DNA of 64,000 bases. Origin: an uncultured Propionivibrio sp. Its GTDB lineage: Bacteria > Pseudomonadota > Gammaproteobacteria > Burkholderiales > Rhodocyclaceae. The notes below the pieces were generated by a model that worked only from the letters and a program-made list of their open reading frames with translations, was not told the origin of the DNA and made no database searches. This document shows positions 58,150 through 63,858 of the stretch, piece after piece; the first letter of the stretch is position 1, and each line of letters opens with the position of its first letter. Position numbers and translations under genes: made by a program. The stretch covers positions 1,426,001 through 1,490,000 of the forward strand of contig NZ_OY762656.1 in NCBI RefSeq assembly GCF_963666255.1, given 5' to 3'.

Positions 58150-60009
58150 TCAGCGCTCCATGGTGTACCGGAGCGTCGCGCGGTCGTCGCTTCGGGAGGG
58201 ACCGCCACTTTCGCCAGCGTCGTGCTGCTGCATGGCCCACATCTGTGCATAGCGTCCATTCTGCCGCAGGAGTTCGGCGTGCGTACCGCGCTCGACGATC
58301 CGGCCGGCATCCATCACCAGGATCTGGTCGGCGTTCATGATCGTCGACAGGCGGTGGGCAATGATCAGTGTCGTTCGTCCGCGAGTTGCCAGATCGAGGC
58401 TGGCCTGGATGGCTTTTTCCGTTTTCGAGTCGAGCGCCGAGGTGGCTTCGTCGAAGATCAGGAGCGACGGATCCTTGAGCAGCGCCCGCGCAATGGCAAC
58501 ACGTTGCTTTTCGCCGCCGGAGAGTTTGAGTCCCCGTTCGCCCACGACAGTTGCCAGTCCGTCCGGCAGGAGCGCGGCGAACTCGGTGAGTTGCGCGGCC
58601 TGCGCCGCCGCGAGCACTTCGTCGTGGGTGGCTCCGGGCCGACCGTAATGGATGTTGTAGAAAATACTCTCGTTGAATAGGACCGTGTCTTGCGGCACGA
58701 TGCCGATCGCTGCGCGCACGCTGGCCTGCCGGAATTCGCGCAGGTCGCGTTGATTGATCCGGATAGCGCCGCCGCTGACGTCGTAGAAGCGATAGAGCAG
58801 CCGAGCCAGCGTCGACTTGCCGGAGCCGGATTTGCCGACGACCGCGACCGTCTTGCCGGCCGGAATGACGAAATCGACACCAAACAGGATGGGCCGCTTG
58901 GCGTCGTAGGCAAAATCGACGTTCTCGAAACGGACCTCGATGTCGCCATGCGGCAGATCGACGGCGTCGGGCGCGTCGACGACTTCGCGGCGCGTCCCCA
59001 GCAGTTTGAACATGCGCTCGATGTCGGTGAGCGACTGACGGATTTCGCGATAGACGATGCCAAGGAAATTGAGCGGCATATAAAGCTGGATCAGGAAGGC
59101 GTTGACCAGCACCAGGTCGCCGATGGTCAGTTGTCCCGAGAGCACTCCCGCCGCTGCCCGCCACATCATTGCCGTGACACCGACGGCGATGATCGCCTGC
59201 TGGCCGATGTTGAGCAGCGACAGCGAGATCTGGCTGCGCGTCGTCGCGTCTTCCCATTTCTCCATGTTGCTGTCGTAACGCCGCGCCTCGAATTCTTCGT
59301 TGTTGAAATACTTGACCGTCTCGTAGTTGATCAGACTGTCGATTGCCTGCGTGTTGGCGATCGAGTCGGTTTCGTTGACCTGTCGCCGGATCGCCATGCG
59401 CCGGTTGCTGATGGTGACCGTGTACGCGATGTATGCCGTCAGCGAAAGCACGGTAATCAGTACGAAGCCGGCGTCATACTTGACGAAGAGTACGCTCAGG
59501 ACCAGCGATATCTCGACCAGCGTCGGCAGGATCGAATACAGGGTATAGCTGATCAGGCTGGTGATGGCGCGCGTTCCGCGGTCGATGTCGCGGGCGACGC
59601 CGCCGGTCTGTCGCTCAAGATGAAAGCGCAGCGACAGGTCGTGCAGGTGCCGGAACACTTCCAGCGCGACGCGCCGGACCGCGCGCTGCGTGACCCGCGC
59701 GAAGATGATTTCGCGCAGTTCGGCGAACAGCGAATTGCTGGCGCGCAGCAGGCCGTAGAGCACGAGCAGCGTTACCGGCAGCACCACCGGCATCGATTCG
59801 GCGCCGATCTCGTCGATCAGGGTCTTGAAGACGATCGGCACGGCGACGTTCGACAGCTTGGCGGCGATCAGGCAACTGAGCGCCAGCAGCACCCGTCCCC
59901 TGAACTGCAGCAGGTAGGGGGCCAGCCGTCGTAGCGTCTGGCGGCCGTTGATCGGCCCCGTCGGGGACTGATATAGATAATCGGAAGCGTTACGGGAAGA
60001 TCGACGCAT
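58150..60009 (-). CDS. Atm1/HMT1-type ABC exporter (ATPase-permease)
   Basis: This half-transporter of about 619 aa has an N-terminal six-helix membrane domain and a C-terminal nucleotide-binding domain with GKSGSGKSTLARL (Walker A), LSGGEKQRVAIARAL (signature) and LLIFDEATSALD (Walker B). The H-loop follows in IIAHRLST. The membrane domain shows the Atm1 segments GGVARDIDRGTRAI and NYETVKYFNNEEFE. Atm1 types export glutathione-linked compounds for iron-sulfur or heavy-metal handling. ATG 60009 is preferred over an upstream TTG at 60075, although neither has a strong ribosome-binding site. Confidence 0.9.
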   Translation of the reverse strand: MRRSSRNASDYLYQSPTGPINGRQTLRRLAPYLLQFRGRVLLALSCLIAAKLSNVAVPIVFKTLIDEIGAESMPVVLPVTLLVLYGLLRASNSLFAELREIIFARVTQRAVRRVALEVFRHLHDLSLRFHLERQTGGVARDIDRGTRAITSLISYTLYSILPTLVEISLVLSVLFVKYDAGFVLITVLSLTAYIAYTVTISNRRMAIRRQVNETDSIANTQAIDSLINYETVKYFNNEEFEARRYDSNMEKWEDATTRSQISLSLLNIGQQAIIAVGVTAMMWRAAAGVLSGQLTIGDLVLVNAFLIQLYMPLNFLGIVYREIRQSLTDIERMFKLLGTRREVVDAPDAVDLPHGDIEVRFENVDFAYDAKRPILFGVDFVIPAGKTVAVVGKSGSGKSTLARLLYRFYDVSGGAIRINQRDLREFRQASVRAAIGIVPQDTVLFNESIFYNIHYGRPGATHDEVLAAAQAAQLTEFAALLPDGLATVVGERGLKLSGGEKQRVAIARALLKDPSLLIFDEATSALDSKTEKAIQASLDLATRGRTTLIIAHRLSTIMNADQILVMDAGRIVERGTHAELLRQNGRYAQMWAMQQHDAGESGGPSRSDDRATLRYTMER

Positions 60010-60133
60010 GGGGGTCAGTTGGGAATCGGGCGCTGCGCCGAAGCGCGCATGGTGAGTATGGCCATTTTTATGCAATTCAGTTCGATGCGTTGGTGACCCG
60101 CGCCGATCCGTGACGCTTTTTGCCCGGATAACA

Positions 60134-61017: not shown

Positions 61018-63114
61018 CTATTTCCACATGCCGCGCATGCGCGCGGCGAGATCGAGTGGCGGCTTCGAGGCTTCGGGATGCTGCGCCGTCCACGCCTGTA
61101 GTCCGGGCGGCTCCGGGGCCGCCGGCCAGCTGCGCTGATCGAAAGCGTTGAGCAGCCCGCTCGGGATGAAGCGTGTGCGGCTGGCATAAACATGACGGTC
61201 GCCTGACCCGCCCGGGCCATTGGTATAGAAGCGCTGCGGCAGCAGGAGGTCGAGATGGTCCTTGGCGCGGGTCATCGCCACATAAAGGAGTCGCCGCTCT
61301 TCCTCGATCTCGGCCTCGCTGCCGGTAGCCATGTCGGAAGGCATGCAGCCGTCAACAACGTTGAGGACGGTTACGGCATTCCATTCCTTGCCTTTGGCCG
61401 AATGGATCGTCGACAGGATCAGGTAGTCCTCGTCCAGCAGTGGGACGCCCGCTTCATCGCTGGTCGCCTCCGGCGGATCGAGCGTGAGTTCGGTCAGGAA
61501 TCGCTCCCGGTTCGGGTAGGTCGAGGCAATGCGTGCCAGTTGCTCGATGTCGCCGCGACGCACGTCGGCGTCTTCGTAGAGGCGATCCATCTGGGCGTCA
61601 TACCAGAGCACCACGCGCTCGAGTGGCGCCGGCCAGGTGTCGGCGCCTTGCCGCAGCCCTTCGATCAGTGCTGAAAACTCGCGCCATGCGTCGCGGGCGC
61701 CTTCCGGAACCGGTTGTTCGGCCAGCAGTTCGCAACCGGGCGTGGCTTCTTGCAGGTGATCGACAATGCGCCCGGCCGTTTTCGGGCCGATGCCGGGCAG
61801 TAGCTGGATGGCGCGAAATCCCGACACCCGGTCGCGCAGGTTTTGCGCCCAGCGCAGGATGGCGAGGAGGTCCTTGACGTGACGCGCTTCCAGGAATTTG
61901 AGGCCGCCGAACTTGATGAACGGGATGTTGCGCCGGGTCAGCTCGATTTCGAGTCGGGCGCTGTGCGAGGCGGCGCGGAACAGCACGGCCTGTGACTTGA
62001 GGCGAATGCCTTGTTCGCGCCGCTCGAGTGTGCGTTCGACGACGTAGGTCGCCTGGTCGGTTTCGTCGCGGACAGTGATCAGACCCGGTTTTTCGGAAGA
62101 GATGCGCTCGCTCCGGAGTTCCTTGCTGTGGCGTTCCTTTGCACGGGCAATGACGGCATTGGAAACGGCAAGGATCGGCTGCGTCGAGCGATAGTTCTGT
62201 TCGAGTGCAATCTGTCGGGCGGGCGGCTGGAACTGTGTTGGAAAGTCGAGGATGTTGCGTACGGTGGCGCCGCGGAAACTGTAGATCGACTGCGCGTCGT
62301 CGCCGACCACCGTCAGCCCCCGGCCGTCGGGTTTCATGGCGCGCAGGATGGTGGCCTGCAGGAAGTTGGTGTCCTGGTATTCGTCAACGAGCACATGGCT
62401 GAAGCGCGCGCCGATCTCGGCCGCCAGTTCGGGCTCGCCGACCATCTGCGCCCAGTAAAGCAGCAGATCGTCATAATCGAGCACCTGCTGCGCCTGCTTG
62501 GCTTCGACATAGGCGAGATAAAGCGCCTTGAGGTCGTGCTCCCATTCGGCGCACCACGGAAAACTGCTTTGCAGGACGTCGGCGAGATCCCTTTGCGTAT
62601 TGATGACCGATGAATAAATTGAAAGGCAGGTACCCTTGAGCGGAAAGCGTTTTCCCTTGCCGGAAAGCCCGAGGTCGTTGCGCGCCAGATTCATGAGATC
62701 GGCCGAGTCTTCGCGATCGTGAATGGTGAAGTCAGCGTTCAGTCCGATGCGCTGTGCATATTCCCTGAGCAGGCGCGCGCCAATGCTGTGGAAAGTGCCG
62801 GACCAGGCAAAGCCGCCGCCGGCGAGGCGCGCGTGGCGTGCCGAGACCTTGCTGGCGATGGCCTGGACCCGCCGCGTCATTTCGTCTGCCGCGCGGCGTG
62901 AGAAAGTGAGCAATAACAGCCGTTCGGGGTCGGCGCCCTGCGCGAGCAAATGGGCGACGCGGTGTGCGAGCGTCGCGGTCTTGCCGGTGCCCGCGCCGGC
63001 AATGATGAGCAGCGGAACGTCATCCGGCGCGATGGCCGCGTCGCGTTGCGAGTTGTTGAGCGTCTTCAGGTAGGCGGGAATGTCTTCCGATGCTGTTTGG
63101 GTGTTGTCGGTCAT
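61018..63114 (-). CDS. UvrD/Rep-family ATP-dependent DNA helicase
   Basis: This 698-aa superfamily 1A helicase has motif Q/I (LNNSQRDAAI; IAGAGTGKTAT), motif II in VLVDEYQDTN, and motif III in VGDDAQSIYSFRGAT. Motif IV is in EQNYRSTQPIL, and motif VI in LLYVAMTRAKDHLDLLLP. It is likely to unwind DNA 3'-to-5' and act in repair or in clearing replication blocks. It is shorter in its C-terminal part than canonical UvrD. The ATG 63114 overlaps the stop of the upstream zinc-ribbon gene by four bases, so the two are translationally coupled behind a LexA-type box. Confidence 0.93.
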   Translation of the reverse strand: MTDNTQTASEDIPAYLKTLNNSQRDAAIAPDDVPLLIIAGAGTGKTATLAHRVAHLLAQGADPERLLLLTFSRRAADEMTRRVQAIASKVSARHARLAGGGFAWSGTFHSIGARLLREYAQRIGLNADFTIHDREDSADLMNLARNDLGLSGKGKRFPLKGTCLSIYSSVINTQRDLADVLQSSFPWCAEWEHDLKALYLAYVEAKQAQQVLDYDDLLLYWAQMVGEPELAAEIGARFSHVLVDEYQDTNFLQATILRAMKPDGRGLTVVGDDAQSIYSFRGATVRNILDFPTQFQPPARQIALEQNYRSTQPILAVSNAVIARAKERHSKELRSERISSEKPGLITVRDETDQATYVVERTLERREQGIRLKSQAVLFRAASHSARLEIELTRRNIPFIKFGGLKFLEARHVKDLLAILRWAQNLRDRVSGFRAIQLLPGIGPKTAGRIVDHLQEATPGCELLAEQPVPEGARDAWREFSALIEGLRQGADTWPAPLERVVLWYDAQMDRLYEDADVRRGDIEQLARIASTYPNRERFLTELTLDPPEATSDEAGVPLLDEDYLILSTIHSAKGKEWNAVTVLNVVDGCMPSDMATGSEAEIEEERRLLYVAMTRAKDHLDLLLPQRFYTNGPGGSGDRHVYASRTRFIPSGLLNAFDQRSWPAAPEPPGLQAWTAQHPEASKPPLDLAARMRGMWK

Positions 63115-63299
63115 GGCGTCGCCCCGGTTGTCGTAACGCCGTTGCCGCTGGTATGCGTTCCCGTCGAAAAGATCATGCCATCGCATTCCGGACAGACGTG
63201 ACCCGCCCACGCCGTGCCATCTGCACGGTCGAGCGTGCGCGGATCAATCGGGGCGTGGCAGTGCGGGCAAATTATTCGTTGCGATGTTCGTGAGGGCAT
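63111..63299 (-). CDS. Small zinc-ribbon protein
   Basis: This 62-aa protein carries two CPxC knuckles, ICPHCHAPID and HVCPECDGMIF, that should bind one zinc ion, plus a Thr/Gly-rich tail (STGTHTSGNGVTTTG). I do not recognise a named family. The ATG at 63299 follows the LexA-like inverted repeat by seven bases. An upstream in-frame ATG at 63338 would start inside that box and is unlikely. Stop and helicase start overlap (ATGA), so the protein is made along with the helicase and may assist it or regulate it. Confidence 0.75.
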   Translation of the reverse strand: MPSRTSQRIICPHCHAPIDPRTLDRADGTAWAGHVCPECDGMIFSTGTHTSGNGVTTTGATP

Positions 63300-63305
63300 G
63301 ACGAT

Positions 63306-63343
63306 GCGAAGTGACACTGTAATAATATACAGTATCACTTCGC
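63306..63343 (-). promoter_or_regulatory. LexA (SOS) box within a long inverted repeat
   Basis: CTGTAATAATATACAG (63317-63332) fits the gammaproteobacterial-type LexA consensus CTGT-N8-ACAG exactly, with an AT-rich middle. It sits inside a larger inverted repeat, 15 of 16 positions paired: left arm 63306-63321, loop 63322-63327, right arm 63328-63343. It lies directly before the zinc-ribbon start, where LexA would block transcription of the helicase operon. Confidence 0.75.
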
Positions 63344-63353
63344 TGCGCCGATC

Positions 63354-63452
63354 TCAAGCGCCGGTGGTGCGAATATTCCAATATCCCCGGTGGAATGTCA
63401 TTTCCATGGTTGAGTTAATGACGCGGGCATGCACGGTAACGATTTCCGCCAT
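63354..63452 (-). CDS. Possible 32-residue small protein
   Basis: The frame begins MAEIVTVHARVINS and ends NIRTTGA. Its ATG at 63452 has GGAG about ten bases upstream. It is positioned directly upstream of the LexA box on the same strand. There is no similarity I recognise, and composition alone does not decide whether it is coding. Confidence 0.3.
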   Translation of the reverse strand: MAEIVTVHARVINSTMEMTFHRGYWNIRTTGA

Positions 63453-63481
63453 CGTCGATTTTCTCCGTTGCGCAGCAAAAA

Positions 63482-63511
63482 TTGAATCACTGGCGCCGAT
63501 ACCTGTCTTAT
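63482..63511 (+). promoter_or_regulatory. Possible promoter for the repeat-protein gene
   Basis: TTGAAT (63482-63487) and TCTTAT (63506-63511) are separated by 18 bases. Transcription would start near 63518, leaving a leader of about 23 nt with AAAGGAG (63528-63534). Confidence 0.4.
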
Positions 63512-63540
63512 GGGCACGGCCCCTGGGAAAGGAGTGATTC

Positions 63541-63822
63541 ATGACGACACGTATTGGCGATTTCGGCGAGCTTCGGGAAGACGTCCTTCCGCAGCAAGCC
63601 ATCTGTGCTTTCGGCGAGGAATGCGTGGACAGCGCTCCCGCAGTGGCGATTTGTGCTTTCGGCGAAGAATGCGCAGAGGCGGCGCCCTCCGTCGCGATCT
63701 GCGCGTTCGGTGAGCCGTGCAGCGATACGCCGCCCGTCCAGTCCATCTGCCTGTTTGGCGAGGAGTGCGTTGAGCGGGCGCCGATACAGCGAATCGGTGA
63801 ATTCGGTCAGGAATTACTCTGA
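63541..63822 (+). CDS. Cys-rich 16-residue tandem-repeat protein, unknown function
   Basis: I do not recognise a family. This 93-aa protein is almost wholly made of 16-residue repeats of the form (A/S)ICxFGEEC-x4-(A/P)P-x2. Four central copies carry two cysteines each (8 Cys in all). A cysteine-free copy (RIGDFGELREDV) caps the N-terminus, and a partial cysteine-free one (RIGEFGQELL) ends the protein. The period is exact, and the central units are near-identical in their first eight residues. AAAGGAG sits six bases before the ATG. There is no signal peptide. A beta-solenoid, a metal-binding scaffold or a multi-core modified-peptide precursor are all possible. Confidence 0.75.
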   Translation: MTTRIGDFGELREDVLPQQAICAFGEECVDSAPAVAICAFGEECAEAAPSVAICAFGEPCSDTPPVQSICLFGEECVERAPIQRIGEFGQELL

Positions 63823-63828
63823 TCGAAC

Positions 63829-63858
63829 AGCGCTTGCCTGAATGGGCAGGCAAGCGCT
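63829..63858. terminator. Perfect 12-base stem-loop between convergent genes
   Basis: AGCGCTTGCCTG (63829-63840) pairs perfectly with CAGGCAAGCGCT (63847-63858) around the loop AATGGG. It lies seven bases after the repeat-protein stop and 24 bases before the stop of the convergent permease. No T tract follows on either strand, so a classical Rho-independent mechanism is not assured. Confidence 0.5.

Follow-up and report, generated by a model that had tools for sequence, protein, structure and literature searches.

The repeat gene and its locus

The window analysed here, a 64,000-nucleotide stretch from an uncultured Propionivibrio sp., carries a plus-strand gene for a 93-aa protein with an ATG start (Table 1; gene coordinates include the stop codon). 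The protein reads MTTR, then IGDFGELREDVLPQQA, ICAFGEECVDSAPAVA, ICAFGEECAEAAPSVA, ICAFGEPCSDTPPVQS, ICLFGEECVERAPIQR and finally IGEFGQELL, with units starting at residues 5, 21, 37, 53, 69 and 85, a step of exactly 16. The original prediction described a strict 16-residue tandem array with two cysteines in each of four central repeats, and the unit starts, the cysteine positions (C-x5-C in units 2–5) and the lag-16 self-identity all agree with it. Self-identity at lag 16 reaches 39 of 77 positions, far above chance, since the best lag among 1–32 gave at most 18 identities in 10,000 shuffles of the protein. The repeats had also been called exact, which holds for their spacing but not for their sequence, as the units vary and the last has only nine residues. 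At the DNA level TRF recovers period 48 in just 2.3 copies at 77%, and unit-versus-unit pS within the protein is high (0.57–0.89). Because synonymous divergence among the units is high, the array is old, and its unit number is fixed in the five genomes seen.

Cysteine makes up 8 of the 93 residues, and 17 acidic residues stand against 4 basic ones. The window protein has no C-C, C-x-C or C-x2-C; successive cysteines lie 6 or 10 residues apart, and the spacing in the family grows wherever a unit lacks the pair. The linkers between cysteine loops are proline-rich and acidic, and no signal peptide was evident on inspection.

Table 1. Features at and around the repeat gene, in window coordinates
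Feature	Position	Strand	Remarks
ATM1-type ABC transporter	58153-60075	-	3.5 kb from repeat gene; close match to solved ATM1-type heavy-metal exporters (PDB 4mrn, 1.9e-163) and to Fe-S exporters
Zinc-ribbon-like frame	63111-63338	-	two CxxC; overlaps start of UvrD-like helicase; Pfam scores below cut-off only
Non-coding block common to window and P. dicarboxylicus	63473..63512	+	not seen at other three orthologues
Ribosome-binding site AAAGGAG	63528..63534	+	6 bases 5' of ATG
Repeat protein gene	63541..63822	+	MTTR plus six 16-residue units, frame I-[CG]-x-F-G-[EQ]
Unit 1, IGDFGELREDVLPQQA	63553..63600	+	no Cys; IGDFGE invariant in 5/5 orthologues
Units 2-5	63601..63792	+	C-x5-C in each (Cys 22/28, 38/44, 54/60, 70/76)
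Unit 6, IGEFGQELL	63793..63819	+	shortened to 9 residues; no Cys in window protein
12-bp hairpin	63829..63858		gap ahead of convergent TctA gene; no T run; not kept in P. dicarboxylicus

Four further orthologues were found, all in genomes of the window's own genus: L003 in P. dicarboxylicus (genome G002), L004 in a Candidatus Accumulibacter metagenome-assembled genome (MAG; G005), L005 in a Propionivibrio MAG (G015) and L006 in a gammaproteobacterial MAG (G014); the window genome is G000. Histidine is absent from all five proteins, as is tryptophan. Against the P. dicarboxylicus orthologue (82% identical), 43 of the 279 coding bases differ once the stop codon is set aside, and 25 of these differences are at third positions. 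In the gene frame pS is 0.375, pN 0.087 and dN/dS 0.18, compared with 0.33–2.9 in the other five frames, and the pair L004 and L005 gives a dN/dS of 0.20 on 11 changes only. A GGAG-containing ribosome-binding site precedes all five orthologues. Given this site and the dN/dS of 0.18, the ORF is by comparative sequence a real gene under purifying selection. The original prediction had staked itself on the frame being kept in close relatives and on substitutions favouring synonymous changes; the orthologue alignment bears out the former, and the excess of pS over pN the latter. Antisense frames fared differently. The ORF at 63354-63746 on the minus strand was rejected as a gene with a dN/dS of 0.33 and an internal stop in the region in both species, and the antisense frame that is open in both species has a dN/dS of 2.2 versus 0.18 for the sense frame. 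We take these antisense ORFs to be shadows of the repeats.

The upstream non-coding block is possibly a promoter of an unnamed sigma type; no sigma-70-like match was found at it. At three mismatches the block recurs six times in its own genome, compared with none for the backwards pattern and a hand-estimated expectation of two to three. Five of these six recurrences lie within or at the edge of open frames of more than 300 codons and one lies outside long frames. The hairpin downstream may be a terminator, and an Rfam search of the locus returned no family. A plus-strand sigma-70-like site at 63298-63326 overlaps a palindrome (63306-63343) that holds a LexA-like box, CTG-N10-CAG (63317-63332), 5' of the minus-strand zinc-ribbon-like and UvrD-like frames. 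A LexA-like box of this type would mean SOS control. The palindrome is letter-for-letter identical in P. dicarboxylicus; CTGT-N8-ACAG has a single match in the window and at least one match in 30 of 100 shuffles.

In both the window and P. dicarboxylicus a UvrD-like helicase gene on the opposite strand adjoins the repeat gene on one side, the zinc-ribbon-like frame sitting between them in the window. Between the two species the helicase frame differs at its start, with lengths of 730 and 794 aa. A TctA/TctC transporter occupies the other flank in the window, also on the opposite strand, and at L013 a 678-aa frame of the same length as TctA follows the gene. The ATM1-type transporter has a 90% identical homologue at the P. 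dicarboxylicus locus and passed no cut-off among the NCBIfam matches listed. In L004 the repeat gene lies downstream of an ATP-dependent phosphofructokinase gene and adjoins a frame that resembles AhpF in its N-terminal, thioredoxin-like portion; at 221.7 bits this match stays below the cut-off for the full length. A second phosphofructokinase-like frame, of 568 aa, lies downstream in L006 and, judged by frame length, also at L004; frame lengths at L005 equal those at L004, a comparison of lengths only. Because no neighbour among those scanned is common to all five loci, the repeat gene probably acts alone.

Cysteine pairs and distribution of the family

Six units stand in register in all five orthologues. 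Every one of the 25 full units has I at position 1, F at position 4 and G at position 5, and 23 of them have Glu at position 6. Positions 2 and 8 are both cysteine in 19 of the 30 units and neither in the remaining 11, with no mixed case; counted as distinct units, 16 have both and 10 neither. Fisher's test, applied post hoc, gives 1.9e-7 for this pairing on distinct units and 3.1e-5 on 18 slots with close orthologues merged. Units free of cysteine carry Gly or Ser at position 2. By unit, the pattern runs 0-CC-CC-CC-CC-0 in the window protein and P. dicarboxylicus, 0-CC-CC-CC-0-CC in L004 and L005, and 0-CC-CC-0-0-CC, with three pairs, in L006. By these per-unit patterns the cysteine pair behaves as a single element, and the regular C-x5-C spacing that was first noticed in one protein is real and retained as a pair. 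The same patterns qualify the proposal that both end units are cysteine-free caps. It applies to the N-terminal unit, which lacks the pair in all five proteins, and not in general to the C-terminal one, since three of the five carry a pair in the last unit and none in unit 5.

The family has a narrow range. A scan of one genome per species across 84,980 species, able to pick up close relatives but not distant ones, yielded 98 pattern matches and the four loci L003, L004, L005 and L006. Of the 28 genomes in the genus, 6 gave a match at E 0.01, and an orthologue was accepted in 5; the sixth match (G001; E 0.003, 35% identity, internal stop) was left out. A two-unit profile finds the same five carriers, with strong matches. 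Relaxing the genus search to E 1 adds 11 genomes with weak matches only (best 0.022), and three such loci (L113, L114 and L115) proved on reading to hold isolated stretches that resemble one unit (KICAFGRLCAE in L114, for example) and no arrays. Searches at higher ranks used draws of genomes rather than all genomes. The family draw matched in 3 of 297 genomes including the window's own, all three of its genus. A whole-protein profile found only the window genome in the order draw (399 genomes), as did the two-unit profile in the class draw (369 genomes). In the phylum draw the two-unit profile matched 4 of 398 genomes, the window's own and three weak ones (E 0.003–0.007); of these, L116 and L118 hold one unit-like stretch at most and the L117 match was not recovered on reading.

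A phage or plasmid origin was considered and rejected, since tblastn at E up to 1 matched none of 50,697 phage records and none of 72,556 plasmid records. Viral contigs yielded 26 pattern stretches, none of them a relative; separately, a two-unit cysteine pattern matched three viral contigs, none of which carries the unit on reading. On the sequences searched, this is an orphan family limited to part of one genus. The RpoB species tree includes three of the five carriers (G014 and G015 had no RpoB match). It places G000 and G002 as sisters (100/100) and G005 in a cluster with six non-carriers (90/85). A single origin followed by losses is possible on this tree.

Family models and predicted structure

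The original prediction knew of no named family with this unit, and we likewise obtained no credible match in NCBIfam, PHROGs, PADLOC or PDB sequences. Pfam gave the window protein only scores below cut-off, Haemadin (7.1e-4) ahead of CCCH (0.0014). A literature search at listing level returned no description of the protein, and the string ICAFGE was not found.

Reversed sequences of all five orthologues, which preserve composition, period and cysteine spacing, served as the Pfam control. CCCH zinc-finger models score in all five orthologues and, up to E 1, in none of the five controls. The best stretches for PF18044 and PF18345 are 7–11 residues long and are placed at the C-x5-C loop. PF18044 passes its cut-off in L004 (7.6e-7) and L005 (6.2e-7) and stays under it in the other three, including the window protein (2.2e-4 to 0.035). 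These E-values are inflated by the repeats, since the reversed controls reach other Cys-rich families, CBM_1 among them (2.8e-4, over its cut-off in one control). An FG-nucleoporin model also scores weakly in L004 (0.0081) and L005 (0.0016), which shows that composition alone can score.

In the account given in PMC9698766, a CCCH zinc finger has three Cys and one His and is of the C-x8-C-x5-C-x3-H type. The repeat protein comes near the first part of this arrangement, with C-x9-C-x5-C across neighbouring cysteine units. It also shares with PF18044, PF18345 and PF00642 a loop of the form C-x-[F/Y]-G-x-x-C. It is nevertheless not a CCCH zinc finger, because with no His in any of the five proteins one ligand, and hence the C-x3-H end, is missing. 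CCCH fingers in addition bind zinc and nucleic acid, and the acidic charge, 17 residues versus 4 basic, would speak against binding to the latter.

AlphaFold2 gave mean pLDDT values of 47.9 and 49.6 in two models from five-row alignments. Neither contains a solenoid, so the beta-solenoid suggested in the original prediction loses ground, with the proviso that a fold dependent on metal or disulfides could escape models built on five rows. Such low values may mean either that the chain alone is unfolded or that the method reaches its limit at so few sequences; they would be compatible with a protein that folds on metal only.

Possible roles of the repeat protein

At a probability of roughly 0.4, we favour a reading in which this genus-limited protein is cytosolic, acidic and probably unfolded, and chelates a thiophilic metal through a string of two-cysteine loops. 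Within it we infer location, metal binding, identity of the metal and cellular role alike. By analogy only with the C-x5-C loop of CCCH fingers, each cysteine unit, I-C-x-F-G-[E/D]-x-C, would form a tight loop with a pair of thiolates at its base. A single loop could then hold a single two-coordinate soft ion (Cu(I), Hg or Ag), or two loops could share one four-coordinate ion (Zn or Cd). Cysteine-free units would serve as spacers that preserve the I/F/G frame, and the protein would buffer the metal, a metallothionein in use and not in family. We hold this reading likeliest because there is no evident signal peptide, the chain is rich in acid, the cysteines are strictly paired and, weakly, an ATM1-type exporter lies nearby. 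The lack of His and Trp, the scores of CCCH models and the low pLDDT also speak for it.

Several observations count against metal binding. Haemadin outscores CCCH for the window protein, and the cysteine content is low for a metallothionein. Three pairs in L006 are odd if two pairs serve each ion, and only 5 of 28 genus genomes are carriers. The exporter is a weak hint of metals, as only two loci were examined for it and it does not form one operon with the gene; its best PDB match is mitochondrial ABCB25, of the Fe-S/thiol-export kind, and need not mean metals. Bacterial metallothioneins bind several Zn, Cd or Cu ions through thiolates and are rich in cysteine clustered as C-x-C or C-x2-C, and by content and clustering (8 of 93 residues, neighbours 6 or 10 apart) the repeat protein is not one of them; no metallothionein family model matched it in Pfam or NCBIfam. 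It is like SmtA and PflQ2MT, as portrayed in PMC10612145, in small size, in cysteines as likely ligands and in a proposed buffering of metal, and unlike them in having 8 Cys in 93 residues, no His, no C-x-C or C-x2-C, and tandem 16-residue units. It is doubtful whether the loops amount to a new kind of metal site, that is, stand-alone two-cysteine loops (I-C-x-F-G-E-x-C) that recur along an unfolded acidic chain in a one-genus family and correspond to the C-x5-C half of a CCCH finger, the remaining two ligands being absent, with metal-free units able to replace metal-bearing ones.

An intra-unit disulfide would require the strict pairing of cysteines within units. A thiol redox switch or buffer, in which oxidation closes a C-x5-C disulfide in every unit and so alters the shape or partners of an otherwise unfolded chain, could work with three or four pairs alike and suits an acidic protein with no confident fold. 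The phosphofructokinase gene and AhpF-like thioredoxin frame at L004 point the same way, but they are not common to the window and P. dicarboxylicus, and no partner is known. P. dicarboxylicus is an anaerobe, in which cytosolic disulfides should be rare, and we regard the switch as rather unlikely. CP12 is the comparison for a protein that is changed by redox state and otherwise unfolded. Like CP12-type linkers, the repeat protein is small and acidic, with cysteine pairs and no confident fold; unlike them, it bears three or four pairs in repeats, and the neighbours scanned include no metabolic gene that recurs across the loci. If instead the I-x-x-F-G frame is the working motif, the protein would be a multivalent scaffold that docks one partner several times. 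Invariance of I, F and G in all 25 full units, with cysteine or without, the six units of all five proteins and the invariant N-terminal IGDFGE would then be accounted for, but the paired gain and loss of cysteines would not, and the neighbours scanned offer no constant candidate partner. We consider this scaffold unlikely. A secreted disulfide ladder or beta-solenoid draws on the strict period and on short strands beside two cysteine loops in one low-confidence model. With no evident signal peptide on inspection, proline-rich acidic linkers, and a second model without any strands, it is highly improbable.

A multi-core precursor of a ribosomally synthesised, modified peptide (RiPP), raised as conceivable in the original prediction, is weakened further and now seems very unlikely. 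Core-like repeat units do follow a cysteine-free N-terminus, and SPASM-domain proteins occur in all five carriers versus 10 of 23 non-carriers, which counts a little. The MNIO family PF05114, however, is found in none of the five carriers and in 5 of the 23 non-carriers, and the SPASM proteins of the carriers fall into more than one family. Model matches place CbpB in G000 and G015, and sequence identity places it in G002 (94%) and also in the non-carrier G004 (73%); the sulfatase-maturase type is present in G000 and, by 41% identity, in G005; the sole SPASM match of G014 lies under all cut-offs. No maturase occurs among the neighbours scanned, in keeping with the earlier remark that none is adjacent. 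The maturase families tested were MNIO and SPASM. Cysteine peptides modified by MNIO or radical-SAM enzymes resemble the repeat protein in their repeated cysteine segments within a short protein, and differ from it in that the repeat protein has no common maturase (of the two families) and keeps its frame in cysteine-free units.

The CbpB of G000 (L078:1557-3107; G000:C2, about 805,600-807,100) matches TIGR04163 at 690 bits. A 57-aa frame upstream of it, distant from the repeat gene, may hold a CbpA precursor, and the next gene downstream is presumably a cobalamin gene. An anaerobic sulfatase maturase (TIGR03942) lies at L079 1929-3281; about 6 kb on, a shorter frame (L079 8817-9308) matches a portion of this enzyme at 77% identity across 93 residues.

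Whatever its role, the repeat protein is real, conserved and unnamed, and it is a clear example of a gene confined to one lineage and kept by purifying selection, in which the unit and its paired cysteines give direct, testable predictions of ligand geometry. If metal binding is true, the family adds a short two-cysteine loop and a metallothionein-like buffer unnamed in the model libraries used; otherwise the protein is a repeat protein of an orphan family like many others.

Elsewhere in the genus we observed a stretch around GTAGTATCGCTACTTTTGGTGAGCGTACTTAACCAGG that is almost invariant and seems to be non-coding, at L045 around 1501 (G000:C1:526270-526287) and at six other loci. Rfam gave no match at the two of these loci that were searched. 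The 18-base core ATCGCTACTTTTGGTGAG occurs once per genome in 23 of the 28 genus genomes. Seven loci were aligned, and the stretch may represent a structured RNA or a regulatory element not described before.
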